Below, piece by piece: positions 38,456-58,032 of a stretch of DNA of 64,000 nt (position 1 is its first letter; each line of letters starts with the position of its first letter). The notes below the pieces were generated by a model. The model had not been told where the DNA came from. It ran no database searches and saw only the letters and a list, made by a program, of their open reading frames with translations. The position numbers and the translations under genes are program-made. Origin of the DNA: Cheiracanthium punctorium (lineage: Eukaryota; Arthropoda; Arachnida; Araneae; Cheiracanthiidae); contig JAWZYV010000772.1 of the NCBI GenBank assembly GCA_038373885.1, positions 248,001 to 312,000 of the forward strand, read 5' to 3'.

Positions 38456-40997
38456 CGTACAAGCAGTGCCGATCCTAGCGGGTGGCAAGATGGTGCACCG
38501 CACGTGGGCGGCCAAACTTAAGGGGCGGCGAAATGATTAGAACTATTAAACTTTTAATTGAGACAGAATTTATGTCTGAAAGTGAAAATTTTAAATTTTC
38601 TACAAGTGAAACTGGTAGAGGATTTAGTTATTCGTATTTTTACAAGTAATTGAAAAATGGTGAAAAAGTTAGACGAACTTGGCTTTTATATTCTGTTTCA
38701 TTAGATACCGCATTTTGCTCTTCATGCGAAATATTTGGAGGGTCCGAAGGTGAAAATATTCAGCTTATTAGTGTTGGTTATAGGGATTGGCAACATTGCT
38801 CTGACTATTTTTCTAGACACGAGAATAGTGCAAAACATATGAAATGTGTTAAGACTTTTTGGGAACTCAAAACACGGCTAAGCAACAATAGCACAATAGA
38901 TAGAGAACAACAAAACTTTTCTTTGGAAAAGAAACGATGGAGAGCAATTATCGAACGAATGATTGCTATTGTGCAATATTTGGCTAGCCAGAACTTAGCT
39001 TTTAGAGGTAGTAATTCAAACCTATACGAAAAAAACAATTGAAACTTTTTAAAAGCGGTGGAAATGATAGCCAAATTCGATCCTGTTTTACTTGAACCTA
39101 TAAATAACGTCCAAAACTCTAAGGATAAGAATAACCGCTTGCCCTATTATTTAGGTCAACATTTTCAAAATGAAATTATTGCACTTTTAGCTGATTCTAC
39201 TAAAAACAGATTATAAAAATAATACAGAAATCCAGATATTTTTCTGTTATATTGGACAGCACACCGGACATTAGCCACACTGAACAAATTACCTTTATAA
39301 TTCGATGCGTGAACATGTCAGATATCAAATCAGTCATTTCCGAATATTTTGTTGGATTTTACCCAATTAAGGATACTACAGGGGAAGGTTTGTTCAATTT
39401 TGTGTTAGATGATGTACTTCCTAGTTTAAATCTAGATGATGTACTTCCTAGTTTAAATCTAGATGTTCAAAACATTCAGGGACAAGGATACGATAATGGC
39501 GCCAACATGCGCGGAAAAAATATAGGTCTGCAAAAGACTATTAGATAATCCTAGGGTATTTTTTACACCATGCGCGGCACATTATTCAAACTTAGAAATT
39601 AACGACGCTGCTAAATCAAGTGGAGAGATTGCAATTTTTTTTATGTTATTCAAGAATTATACAATTATTTTTCAGCTTCGATATACAGATGGAATATTTT
39701 AAAGAATACAATTACAAACTTTTATTTAAAGCCGCTAAACGATACTCGCAGGGAGAGTCGAATACTGACATTACGACCATTGCAAACATAGATCTTAAAA
39801 ATATCCTCGTTGCGTTGAATCAACTTTCATGTGAAGCAAAAGATCGTGTAGCAAAGCTAAAAGCTAAATCTCTAACGGAAACAATTTGTTCATTCAAATT
39901 TATACGTTCAGTAATGATTTGGCACGATTTGCTAGAAAGAATAAATATTGTTTCAAAAATGTGGCAGCAATCGAACATAGATTTAACAGAATGTGTCGAA
40001 GCATTAAGAAATTTAAAAACATATTTAATTTTGAAAAGAAATGACGAAAGCTTTGTCACATTTATCAATCAATCGTCTATTATTGCACAGAAAATTAATG
40101 TAGAACCCGAATTTCCTGAAATTCGTGAAAGAAAAAAACCTCGTACGTTTCTCTACGAATCACATGATGAAAATGTTACAGACTCTGAAAAAAAGTTTAA
40201 GATTAATTTTTATTCTCAAATTTTGGATATTTCCATTAATTCAGTAGGTGAACGTTTCGATTTGGTGGAAAGCTTTTTCTCAACATTCAGCTTATTACTA
40301 ACCTTTAACTCTGAAGATAGTGACAATTTGAAAAAAAAGTTGTATGGATTTGGACATTAAACTACAAATAAATAAAGATGGAAAAATAGAAAGGGACTTA
40401 GACGGTATAGAATTGCACAGTGAAATGCAGATGCAATTCTATGTTTTCGAGATCTATTTCCAAATATTTGCCGGTTAAAGCCATTAGAAATTTTGGAATC
40501 ATATATTAAGTCAAGATTTAACATCATATTTTCCCAATTTATCTATAGCACTCAGAATATTTTTGACTATACCAATCTGTGTTGCTTCAGGTGAAAGAAG
40601 CTTTTCAAAATTAAGTTTGATTAAAAATTACTTAAGATCTACAATCTCACAAGAAATGCTTACGAATGTGGCTATTGTTTCAATTGAAAGTGACATCTGT
40701 GAGGCGATAGACATTTCAAGTGTTATAGATGAATTTGCATGTAAGAAAGCTCGAAAAATATTGTTATAATTTTTTGAAAGATCAGAAAAACTTATTGTAG
40801 TTGTAGATTGTATTTTTCTGAAAATAAAATACGAACTTGATTTTCATCCATTCCATACTTTTTACACTTCCATACATTTTAAAAAAAGTGTTTGATAGTA
40901 ATTTATTTAAACATTTTGTTGGTTTGTAAGAAAAGGGGCGGCCACTTTTAATTTGTACGTGGGCGGCCGAAGGTCTAGGATCGGTACTGCGTACAAG
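38456..40997 (+). mobile_element. hAT transposon (ZMYM1-like), with perfect 8-bp target duplication
   Basis: Begins CAGTGCCGATCCTAG at 38464 and ends CTAGGATCGGTACTG at 40989. Both sides are flanked by CGTACAAG (38456-38463 and 40990-40997), an exact 8-bp target duplication. GGGCGGCC words lie just inside both ends. It carries one decayed transposase gene on the plus strand. Element length 2526 bp. Confidence 0.93.
38580..40769 (+). pseudogene. hAT transposase, ZMYM1/TTF-zinc-finger type, broken
   Basis: Fragments appear in order but in different frames. (a) 38580-39042: a TTF-type zinc-finger region with RTWLLYS, FCSSCEIFGG and HENSAKHMKC, interrupted by a stop at about 38647. (b) 39045-39215: FLKAVEMIAKFDPVL and YYLGQHFQNEIIALLADS. 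(c) about 39220-39548: ILDSTPDISHTEQ with the first catalytic Asp, and GQGYDNGANM with the second. (d) about 39540-39640: NPRVFFTPCAAHYSNLEIND. (e) 39620-40360: helical region ending near a lost acidic residue. (f) 40563-40769: the C-terminal dimerisation motif ASGERSFSKLSLIKNYLRST. At least four frameshifts or stops make it inactive. A 27-bp in-frame tandem duplication at 39408-39461 repeats DDVLPSLNL. Family placement is by motif reading, and I am confident of it. Confidence 0.9.
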
Positions 40998-53305: not shown

Positions 53306-53670
53306 AGTTCATATTCAGTTTTTATTATATACACAAATCGAATTTCATGCTCTTCTGGAAACCTAAGGAAACTTTTGACATTCGAAAGATTTCGTTTTGT
53401 TTGCAGAGCCTTTACTTATATCTATGCAGACGATTTATTTGTGTGTGCGTGTGTGTGTGTGGGGGGGGGGACTAAGTAATCTGGAAAAACTATTTTAAAT
53501 TAATTGGAATCCGACTTTCTTTTCAAAGCCTGTTCCAAAGAACTCGAAACCACTCATATAGCTGACGCCTAGAGCGCCGCTTCTGTCCTAGATAGCACAG
53601 TTGTCCATTTTATATCCATTTGTGATCCATCTCGCCCATATTACGTCCATGTCTATAGAAAGACATCCAG

Positions 53671-54647
53671 CCCAGACAGCACATAAGCTTAAATCAAGCC
53701 TGACATTTCTTTGAATTTGACGTATTAATACAAGCTTGACAGTTCAATTCATTTTAAGCTTGCAGCAAGCTTGGAGATAACAAAAAATTGAGTCAGCAAA
53801 TATTTTTCCGCCGAATTTAAGTCATTTGAACTGTCAAGCTTGAATACAACTTGATTACTGCTTGATTTGAAAAGCCACATCCACATAACAAATAATTTAT
53901 CATCATTCATAAATGTACTTGACCATAGAATTTTAAAAAAAATTCTATGTTTCCAAATATTGAAATTCTTCAAAATAAAATACAAATATACTACGAAATT
54001 GATTTCAAATTTAGTCATTTGTCTCGATTTTGGCCAATACTGCCCAACATGAGTGTTGCGATATTGAAAGTTTTAAAACGTGTGCTGCTTTTAAGTTTAT
54101 ATTACGCTTATTTCCCTATTAGCAGAGTCTATAAATCACACATAACATTATTTTAATTTTGATTCATCCGATGGAAAAATAAAAGAAGCGGATCGTCATC
54201 GGCCATTGATCAATCTTGCCAGAAAACGGCGTGACAACCACAACAGTCACTTCAAACTTTAGTCACATCACCGCGAGTCAGATTGGGTGAGTGTTTAGGA
54301 CGGTGGCTTCGCACACCTAAGGTCCCGAGATCGATCCCAGCCGCGGACACAAGACGGAAACAGATTAAAATAACTTGAAATTTCAGCGTAGAGGGGAAAA
54401 TGCGTGAGAAAATATTATATATGGGGCGAGTTCGCCGACGGGCGCCCCATGTATTTAGGAAATTTTTAGTTTGAATTAAGCTTGATACGTCAAGCTCAAT
54501 GCAAGTTGGGCAAGTGTAAACTTGAACACTTGATTCAAGCTTGCATTACGCTTACACGCTTGAAATTTTAAAAGCTTAATTCAAGTTTATTGACTTGATA
54601 AATCAAGCTTACTGCAAGTTTGATGCAAATTTGCTGTGCTGTCTGGG
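53671..54647. mobile_element. Family-1 element (CCCAGACAGCACA ends), 977 bp
   Basis: The terminal 13 bases CCCAGACAGCACA are exactly inverse at the two ends. The interior near both ends is packed with CAAGCTTGA-type words. It contains a tRNA-like module (54272-54346) and a perfect 8-bp GC hairpin ATGGGGCG/CGCCCCAT at 54421-54450. The flanking host sequence rejoins as GACATCC-AG-AAGACATC, suggesting a target duplication of only about 2 bp. Transposon superfamily not recognised. Confidence 0.75.
54272..54346 (+). other. tRNA-like Pol III module inside the family-1 element
   Basis: GGGTGAGTGTTTAGGACGG resembles a D-arm/A box and GAGATCGATCCCAG a T-arm/B box, about 45 nt apart. It is not a folded, intact tRNA. 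It may be a SINE remnant or a resident promoter. Confidence 0.45.
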
Positions 54648-54790
54648 AGAAGACATCTATTTATGAACATAATCTGGAAAATCCAGAAAATGTCCATGAA
54701 TAGACCAAAACTAGACATGGAATTTCCAGAGTAAGTCTTTTTATAGACGTATCCCAGATAATCCATAGTACCTTAGTGAATTGGTAAGAA

Positions 54791-55845
54791 CCCAGATAGC
54801 ACAAACTTGCCCAGAACACGCCTAATCAAGACGTCATATAGACAAGCTGACATGTCCATTAAACATCCAGGATTCGTCCAATTCTCGTCCATTTTACGTC
54901 AGTATGGCTCTATAGGACGCCCATATGACGTCTTATAGACATGCATATGGACGTAATAATGGACGTGTTTGTCTATTTATAGAACTTTTACGGTCGAATC
55001 CTGGACATCAACAAAAACCATTGAATAATTTTTAGCTAATTTTATGTAATGATTAATTTAAATTTACCGTTACATCTTAATAACGAATTTTGTAAAAATA
55101 TTCGTACCTAATTTTTTTAAATCAACCTTTAAGTACTTGCCCCGCTTCAGATTCGAGCCCTTAATCATGGACTTCACAGTAGAGTGTGCTAGCCACTATA
55201 CGCAGAGGAACTTGCTCTGATATGTCAAAATGTTGAAGTAGAGATTTTTTAGTTTCGGACTGGGAACTTAGAAAAAAAATGTGCAGCTATTTGTTTCTGG
55301 ATGTTGAGTCGCTAGAGAATTTTCTTTTTTTGTATGAGGATATGAGTTTCTTTTTACACAATACCGCTTTTATAGGAAATAATAATGCATAAAAAAATAA
55401 AAAGCATTTTAAATTTCAAAAGTTCCCCGAAAAAAAAAAAGAAAAAAACCTCTAGAATTCAAAATGTTTTTAAACTTTTTGGGGGTAAAATGTAATATCA
55501 ATAAAAACATAAAGTATAGTAAATTCATGCGTCGTAAGTACAGGATTGGGTAAAATGAAAACCAATGACAAAAAAGTAACTTTTTCATATTTTGTCCATT
55601 TCTGGACTTATATACACTCATCAATTTTATGTCGTATCACTGACATAGTATGGATCATCTGGAATACGTCCATAAATGGACTGGATATTCTAATTCTAGT
55701 TTTGGTCTATTCATGGACATATTCTGGATTTTCCAGATTATGTCCATAAATAGATGTCTTCTGGATGTCAATGTATAGACATGGATGTATTATGGAGGAA
55801 ATGGATCAGAAATAGACATAAAATGGACAAGTGTGTTATCTTAGA
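54791..55845. mobile_element. Family-2 element, copy A (nearly complete, about 1055 bp)
   Basis: Starts CCCAGATAGCACAAACTTG; the inverse of the right end is CTAAGATAACACACTTGTCC. Both ends are rich in GTCCAT/ATGGAC words. A tRNA-like module lies at 55143-55208 (minus). Copy B (56999-58032) is its inverse-oriented relative, alignable over most of its length. No transposase ORF. Confidence 0.8.
55143..55208 (-). other. tRNA-like module in family-2 copy A
   Basis: The minus strand reads GCGTATAGTGGCTAGCACAC (D-arm/A box) and AAGGGCTCGAATCTG (B box). It is the same module as 57617-57683. Confidence 0.6.
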
Positions 55846-56942
55846 AGCATGGATGAAGATGTCCAAGACTTGATCTAAGTAGGTCCATATATGGGCATTG
55901 ATGTCCAAGACTTGCCCATACTAAGTCCATAAACAGACAAGCACATCCATAATTACGTCTATATCTATGTCTATAAGACGTCATATGGGCGTCAGATAGT
56001 GCCATATTGACGTAAAATGGACGAGAATCCGACGAATCCTGGATGTTTAATGGACATGTTAACTTGTCTATATGTAAGGTGACCATACGTCCTCGAAATT
56101 CGAGGACAGTCCCCAAATATAGATCTTTTTTTTATTTCGTCCGCAAAAATACTTGACTTCTTGGGAACGCGAAAAGTCCCCAAATTTAAAGATTTGTACT
56201 TTTCCCCTGAATGTTTCCGTTTAGTTTATTTCTTTCAGAAAAAAACTGAAGAAATAAAACTACTAAAAGCGCTTTCTACTAAGAGAAACGATGAATTTCG
56301 ATCTCTGAAAACGTTTGTTGTCATTGTGTGTGTAGCGTGTACGACATTCAATAAAGTATTCGACTATGAGCTAAATTTCCCATTTCAGTTTTGTCAATGA
56401 TTAATCACTTTTCACGAAGAATCATGTTTTAAATATGAAATTGACGTACGAAATTTTTCTTGCACTGAAATACTTTTTTTAGAGGGTGTACAAAGTTTCA
56501 TGAAAAATTATCACAATATCAGCCAATGTAAAACGTATGTCTTCTGAAAAATACAAATACTATGCCAAGAGTTAAAGTTTGAATAAATTGCAATATTTCT
56601 AAATGATGTTCCTTTCATACTTCTGGTTTAAATAAATATTTATAAATGAATGAAATACTTCCATTATATTATTAGAAATAAGAATACACAATTGATATAA
56701 AAAGGTATTACAGTTCATTTTTAAGTATCACAGTCAAGATTTAAAGTATGGGTATACTAGTACACATGGTAATATGTTGTGTCCTCGAATAAGTCCTCAA
56801 AAACATTTTCTAGTGTCCCCAAGTTTTCCTTGGATTCGAGAACAATGCTTGATTTGTCCCCAAATTACTGTTTAGAAATATGGTCGCCTTATCTATATGA
56901 CGTCTTCTAGGAGTGTTCTGGACAAGTTTGTGCTCTCTGGGG
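55846..56942. mobile_element. Family-2 element, copy C (one end, split by a hAT element)
   Basis: Contains GTCTATAAGACGTCATATGG, ACGTAAAATGGACGAGAATC and, after the interrupting element, GACAAGTTTGTGCTCTCTGG as its terminus. The insertion at 56075-56891 can be removed exactly. Confidence 0.7.
56067..56899. mobile_element. hAT-type element with TAAGGTGACCA ends, perfect 8-bp duplication
   Basis: The 817-bp element (56075-56891) starts TAAGGTGACCATACGTCC and ends with the inverse of TAAGGCGACCATA. TCTATATG flanks both sides (56067-56074 and 56892-56899). GTCCCCAAAT lies near both ends in mirror sense. The 79-codon ORF inside has no transposase motif. Confidence 0.85.
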
Positions 56943-56998
56943 TTAAATCCGCCACTGCATAGGTGTTTTGCTTAGACAGCGTTTTCCGAAATTCGTAA

Positions 56999-58032
56999 CC
57001 CTGATAACTCGTCCATTTTATGTCTATTTCTGATCCAACTCATCCATAATACATCTATGTCTATACATAGACATCCATAAGACATCTATTTATGGACATA
57101 ATCTGGGAAATCCAGAATATGTCTATGAATAGACCAGAGCTGGAATTAGAATATCCAGAATAAGTTCATTTATGGATGTATTCCAGATGATCCACACTAT
57201 GTCAGTGATGCGACATAAAATGGATGTGTGTATAAGTCCAGAAATAGACAAAATACAGAAAAGTTACTTTTTTGTCATTGATTTTCATTTTACCCAATAC
57301 TAAACTTACGACGCATGAATTTTTTATACTTTATGTTTTTATTGATATTACATTTTACACCAAAAAAGTTTAAAAACATTTTAAATTCTAGAGGGATTTT
57401 TTGGCAGGGAACTTTTGAAATTTAAAATACTTTTTATGTATCATTATTTCCTATAAAAGCTGTATTCTGTAAAACGAAACTCATATCCTCATACAAAAAA
57501 GAAAATTCTCTAGCTACTCAACATCCAAAAAGGAATAGCAGCATATTTTTTTCTGAGTTCCCAGTTCGAAACTAAAAAATCTTTACTTCAACATTTTGAC
57601 GCATCCGAGCAAGTCCCGCTGCGTATAGTGGTTAGCACACTCTATTGTGAAGTCCATGATTAAGGGTTCGAATCTGAAACGGGGCGCGTACTCGAAGGTT
57701 GGTTTGAAAAAAAATAGGTACGAATATTTTTACAAAATTCGTTATTAAGATGTATCGAAAAATTTAAATTAATCGTTACATAAAATTAGCTAAAAATTAT
57801 TAAATGTTTTTTGTTGATGTCCAGGATTCGACCGTAAAAGGTCTATAAATAGACAAACACGTCCATTATTACGTCCATATGCATGTCTATAAGACGTCAT
57901 ATGGGCGTCCTATAGTGCCATATAGACGTAAAATGGACGAGAATTGGACGAATCCTGGATGTTTAATGAACATGTCTGCTTGTCTATATGACGTCTTCTA
58001 GGCGTGTTCTGGACAAGTTTGTGCTATCTGGG
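56999..58032. mobile_element. Family-2 element, copy B (about 1034 bp, inverse of copy A)
   Basis: Starts CCTGATAACTCGTCCATTTT and ends CAAGTTTGTGCTATCTGGG. It matches copy A in inverse orientation through the tRNA-like module, the poly-A/T tracts and the TGGAC-rich ends, with scattered substitutions. Confidence 0.8.
57617..57683 (+). other. tRNA-like module in family-2 copy B
   Basis: GCGTATAGTGGTTAGCACAC has the shape of a D-arm/A box, and AGGGTTCGAATCTG is an almost canonical B box (GGTTCGAATC). The outer CCCG/CGGG could pair like an acceptor stem. The anticodon arm does not fold convincingly, so it is a tRNA-like promoter module and not a tRNA gene. Confidence 0.65.

Follow-up and report, generated by a model that had tools for sequence, protein, structure and literature searches.

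We analysed a 64,000-nucleotide stretch of the genome of the spider Cheiracanthium punctorium (assembly GCA_038373885.1, contig JAWZYV010000772.1, positions 248,001 to 312,000; hereafter the window), in which an earlier note had proposed two transposon families that share their terminal sequence and carry modules resembling transfer RNA (tRNA). Direct reading of the interval 53587-58032 revealed a nest of transposons with a family-2 element, copy C, outermost. Copy C is split by a family-1 element, by a second family-2 element (copy A) and by a hAT-like miniature inverted-repeat transposable element (MITE). The features are as follows.

53587..56941, minus strand: copy C, short-form family-2 element without a tRNA-like module; flanking GT; host of the three nested insertions
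53671..54647, plus strand: family-1 element of 977 bp inside copy C; perfect 13-bp ends CCCAGACAGCACA; flanking AG
54271..54347, plus strand: family-1 tRNA-like module, at the same place in 10 other aligned family-1 copies
54791..55844, plus strand: copy A, long-form family-2 element inside copy C; flanking AA
55139..55211, minus strand: tRNA-like module of copy A, 73 nucleotides, by direct reading
56075..56891, no strand assigned: hAT-like MITE of 817 bp in copy C; TAAGGTGACCATACGTCC ends and 8-bp duplication TCTATATG; outside the families with CCC ends
56999..58032, minus strand: copy B, long-form family-2 element just downstream of copy C; flanking AA
57613..57685, plus strand: tRNA-like module of copy B, 73 nucleotides, by direct reading

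The four pieces of copy C (53587-53670, 54648-54790, 55845-56074 and 56892-56941) run from the end CCTAGATAGCACA at 53587 to the end CCCAGAGAGCACA at 56941. With the insertions removed by script, the element measures 495 bp and aligns to an intact 566-bp short form elsewhere in the genome (locus L067, with CCCAGATAGCACA at both ends), 458 of 494 aligned columns being identical, with 73 gap positions. Copies A and B are 89.6% identical over 1049 columns and the left end of copy B is degenerate (CCCTGATAACTCG). The family-1 element is complete, with perfect inverted ends and its flanking AG, and lies where the earlier note had placed it. Four family-2 copies, A to D, had been listed in addition; A and B proved to be complete elements, and the further pieces belong to the single broken short copy C.

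To place these elements we searched the host assembly (2.53 Gb), which gave 1527 first-look candidates for copy A and 5838 for family 1. As 40 candidates were scored per query, the family-2 loci described here are the best 40 of 1527, and for family 1 40 of the 5838 were scored and 10 of the best listed were read; decayed and truncated copies are under-represented in both families in such best-scoring sets. The listed best copies for both queries are mostly near full length. Identity to the family's own consensus is 94.9-99.5% for long-form family 2 (28 aligned rows, excluding L001, which is the window itself, L017, L024 and L027) and 95.6-98.3% for family 1 (11 rows; consensus of 986 bp).

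Both families end in CCCAGAYAGCACA, and their common ends were thereby borne out. This exact 13-mer occurs 17,786 times in the genome, compared with 24 occurrences of the control, the same pattern read backwards. Identical 2-bp flanks were found at 36 of 53 end pairs and identical 3-bp flanks at 7 others, with neither at 10; when the right flanks were shuffled 1000 times, the 2-bp class averaged 8.0 with a maximum of 18, and the 3-bp class 1.7 with a maximum of 7. The 3-bp class is the weaker evidence of the two, because its shuffled maximum equals the observed 7. The 53 pairs include two (L062 61-517 and L067 21-399) in which a true end is joined to an inner match arising by chance; these were retained in the count. 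The commonest duplicated dinucleotide is TA (13 of 36). It was also seen directly in a third family, an element of about 1.1 kb with the same ends (L034 284-2520, L051 282-1395, L052 331-1466 and other loci), whose last 28 bases are 96% identical to the end of the family-2 copies L065 and L066: in L034 one family-3 copy (1031-2141) is nested in another, and the empty site with its TA duplication is visible there.

Elements with CCC ends were also seen to cluster and nest. A further end with at most one mismatch lies in the flanks of 10 of 27 family-2 loci among L002-L030, and for exact ends the flanks of 27 family-2 loci gave 10 compared with 0.56 expected from the genome-wide density, these loci being best-scoring rather than random. 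Full family-2 elements were found within short family-2 elements, and clusters were noted in L034 (284-2520), L036 and L038.

The word-dense subterminal repeats described earlier were recovered in both consensus sequences, far above shuffles. In the family-1 consensus, AAGCTTR and its complement match 24 times, at 12 palindromic sites and never more than 250 bp from an end (mean 0.58 and maximum 7 in 500 shuffles). In that of family 2, GTCYAT/GTCCAG matches 22 times, of which 21 fall in the 260 bp next to an end (null mean 1.2 and maximum 5). Clustered subterminal words are the transposase-binding sites of plant Spm, and by analogy the words found here may be regarded as putative transposase-binding sites. 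A literature search with the exact end 13-mers and 12-mers returned only unrelated-looking papers.

Plant-type CACTA elements, which have CACTA or CACTG ends and a 3-bp duplication, were considered and rejected, the ends here being CCCAG and the commonest duplication 2 bp. The animal branch, Transposons Related to CACTA (TRC), is described by a CCC core, 2-bp duplications and a Transposase_21 transposase (PMC1636069). The CCC core at the inverted-repeat ends and the 2-bp duplication are both present in the spider elements, and since CCC termini with 2-bp duplications constitute the published TRC signature, the superfamily, which the earlier note did not recognise, is probably a known one. A match of the ends to a known superfamily had been named there as an outcome that would speak against its proposal; such a match largely exists, though no transposase bounded by exactly these ends turned up. 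The core and the 2-bp duplications are shared with SmTRC1 and with the TRCs of Tribolium and Aedes, and the Tribolium end, CCCTAGTAGCACC, resembles CCCAGAYAGCACA (PMC1636069). In contrast to those TRCs, the elements described here measure about 0.5-1.5 kb and have no transposase gene, and families 1 and 2 bear tRNA-derived modules. The Hydra element Spongebob (EnSpm-4N1_HM), placed in TRC by its authors, starts with CCCAGCCAAC and likewise combines a CCCAG start, 2-bp duplications and non-autonomous copies; it differs in the rest of the end sequence (CCCAGCCAACATTGAC), and the available part of its description does not mention a tRNA module (PMC4298943). In the survey by Kojima, such elements are grouped as CMCT, mostly with CA..TG ends and duplications of 2-5 bp (PMC12730594). 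Taken as a whole, families 1 and 2 are likely non-autonomous, MITE-type members of TRC that carry tRNA relics as passengers.

The tRNA resemblance of the modules was assessed with two panels, 21 human tRNAs and 11 host tRNA genes of only four isotypes, taken from a listing of 50. For each of 8 module sequences all 300 shuffles scored lower than the module itself against the human panel, and none of 300 was as good against the host panel for any of 5 modules. When 376 windows over both consensus sequences were ranked against the human panel, the 12 best all covered the modules, judged by offset. The closest match was that of the L062 module, of family-1 type, with host tRNA-Arg(TCT), 48 of 64 bases being identical in an ungapped alignment with a score of 64 compared with a shuffle maximum of 26; the family-1 consensus module scores lower against host tRNAs (36) and points to no clear nearest isotype. 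For the 73-nucleotide family-2 module, the consensus shows an acceptor-like stem of 7 bp; its closest match in the human panel is tRNA-Gln, followed by tRNA-His, and its best score in the host panel is 32-36, with tRNA-Arg. Taken alone, the pair of A and B boxes is weak: scores as high were reached by 6 of 200 random sequences for family 1 and by 9 of 200 for family 2. By alignment, the tRNA resemblance of the internal modules exceeds chance and marks them as tRNA-derived; the case rests on comparing the full module with tRNAs and not on the box pair. Each element had been said to contain such a pair; modules are present in family 1 and in copies A and B, and copy C has none.

ARAGORN at default settings did not call the modules as tRNA. 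At 70% of its threshold, its sole match in the family-1 element of the window was the module (600-678), and in family 2 it gave four or five matches, mostly outside the module. The Rfam tRNA model RF00005 did not match the modules in the window, in 10 family-2 loci, in 10 family-1 loci or in 8 further loci; Rfam matches on the elements to microRNA and other families were below gathering scores and were not used. About 85 bp at one locus (L012 3683-3767) form a near-perfect hairpin that may be a tiny MITE; its score against a microRNA family is weak and below the gathering score. Two tandem tRNA arrays were observed in the host genome, one of 11 matches with 367-bp spacing (G000:C8354:181527-185269), in which the one gene read is tRNA-Arg TCT, and one of 5 matches with 1091-bp spacing (G000:C7444:817-5254), in which the one read is tRNA-Thr AGT.

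Aligned with each other, the modules of the two families score only 16-24, about the level of shuffled modules against the tRNA panels. Because of these low scores, one shared capture is unlikely, and the modules probably stem from two separate captures. We infer that a TRC transposase acting in trans would recognise the CCC ends together with the adjoining word clusters and paste the elements at targets of 2-3 bp. Two host tRNA genes would have been captured separately, a tRNA-Arg-like one by the family-1 lineage and a tRNA-Gln/His-like one by long-form family 2, and the relics would then have multiplied as passengers. The modules are most likely hitchhiking tRNA relics, acquired by passive capture.

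Alternatively, a tRNA-derived module binding RNA polymerase III (Pol III) or TFIIIC could have been recruited twice independently by these cut-and-paste elements and kept for a benefit to their mobility or survival, by way of non-coding transcription, open donor chromatin or insulation. Such effects have been proposed for Helenus, short long terminal repeat (LTR) elements that contain captured tRNA-derived sequence with box motifs reported as conserved (PMC10886601), of which the spider families would be the DNA-transposon counterpart. Several observations favour this possibility and weigh against passive carriage: most family-2 copies have intact boxes (GGTTCGAATC in 21 and CGTATAGTGG in 23 of 28 copies), T-runs follow the module at 114 nucleotides in family 1 and 40 in family 2, and the modules of what were probably two separate captures occupy comparable stretches of the element (61-69% and 60-67% of its length) in one orientation. 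Seven divergent, hand-chosen family-1 types add a slightly better conserved box A (0.87) than the bases between the boxes (0.80); in the same types box B, at 0.77, falls below the flanks (0.85 and 0.92), unlike what is reported for the boxes of Helenus. Conservation is moreover lower in the modules than elsewhere in the element. In family 2 the values are 0.947 and 0.969, with 10% of equal windows lower, and the family-1 module lies within the least conserved part of its consensus (551-850). The boxes of family 1 are eroded, the B arm differing from the consensus in 6 of 11 copies, in five by a 6-nucleotide deletion, and the A-box consensus being preserved in 4 of 11; furthermore, the short form of family 2 exists without the module. 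In the functional sense, a resident Pol III promoter, as the earlier note suggested, is hence unsupported by conservation, by the often altered family-1 boxes, by default ARAGORN or by the Rfam tRNA model, and we consider a retained function unlikely.

The position of the modules bears on a further alternative, namely that each is a tRNA-derived short interspersed nuclear element (SINE) that landed in an ancestral element. The module stands at the same place in all 11 aligned family-1 copies, and it is in place in six (L030, L060, L061, L062, L065 and L068) of eight other family-1-type loci aligned; in L069 the right half alone remains, and at L014, where a family-2 element has landed next to the module, the alignment does not include the module part. 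Among the 40 loci listed for the 91-bp family-1 module, 12 absent from the family-1 list were read, and family-1 sequence lies on both sides of the module at 12 of 12, in one case extending only 23 bases beyond it. Module queries gave fewer first-look candidates than whole elements (2316 compared with 5838 for family 1, 629 compared with 1527 for family 2), counts that depend on query length. Neither a tail nor a flanking duplication was seen around the modules, and the family-1 module did not behave as an independent unit with duplications of its own. In tRNA-derived SINEs, as here, tRNA-derived sequence with box traces is multiplied by a mobile element; here the unit has inverted repeats with duplications of 2-3 bp, and wherever it was read, the family-1 module lies inside the element. 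The tRNA-derived head with box traces, established by alignment to tRNAs, and the more than 100 bp between the family-1 module and its T-run would fit a SINE, and an ancient one could have lost its tail and duplications. Variable presence of the module with its own duplications, the pattern expected of simple SINE insertions, was not observed: the module lies within family 1 at the 12 loci read, and the module-less form of family 2 misses its entire middle, module included. We regard a SINE origin as quite improbable, and the earlier view of the modules as something other than simple SINE insertions holds for the 12 family-1 matches.

An autonomous partner of the proposed TRC elements was also searched for. 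Transposase_21 genes exist in the host genome, which returned 10 matches in a PF02992 search and 84 in a tnp2 protein search. Six loci (L053, L054 and L056-L059) were seen to contain long open frames of CACTA-type (Transposase_21/DUF4218) transposases of at least two divergent groups. When six host transposases were aligned, three fitted the published eumetazoan motif L/V/I-D-X-L/M-H-X3-L-G (PMC1636069) strictly and three deviated at the first residue. Other results speak against the TRC assignment. No autonomous element with CCCAGAYAGCACA-type ends was found, and no such end pair was present at the seven transposase loci read; one transposase element, delimited through its second copy, has borders that do not read CCC; and three long CCC end pairs, taken as autonomous candidates, turned out to be family-1 elements that carry other insertions. 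To these is added an exon relic in family 3 (EWRNVEQEVNDELFLIEAEC...; 571 candidates, of which 150 were scored) that has no Pfam match. The PF18758 (KDZ) profile had no match, but its control was silent too, and this is no evidence of absence. The same internal deletion is present in all four family-3 loci read, and a pattern designed for copies without it had no match in the genome. The exon relic is the best lead to the autonomous partner and its transposase. If another DNA-transposon superfamily had acquired CCC ends and duplications of 2-3 bp by convergence, this would fit the missing linked transposase, the relic without a Pfam match and the transposase loci without such ends. The published TRC signature, however, is a CCC core and 2-bp duplications together with Transposase_21, all of which this genome has, and we hold the convergence explanation to be very unlikely.

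Outside the CCC families, pieces of the hAT-like MITE found in copy C also interrupt a family-2 copy in L040 (3455-3950). The window contains two open frames of 130 and 254 amino acids at 38650-39042 and 39596-40360, which look like fragments of a hAT-type transposase.

The question of the superfamily receives a probable answer: it is most probably of a known kind, and what is new is the tRNA passengers. A literature search on tRNA modules in DNA transposons yielded, among the papers listed, no recognised case of a DNA transposon with such a module. In C. punctorium, tRNA-derived sequence appears to have been multiplied by DNA transposons and not by SINE retroposition, which would confuse both SINE and tRNA annotation. 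If either module were Pol III-active, cut-and-paste elements would join SINEs and LTR elements, for which the capture of small-RNA promoters has been described.

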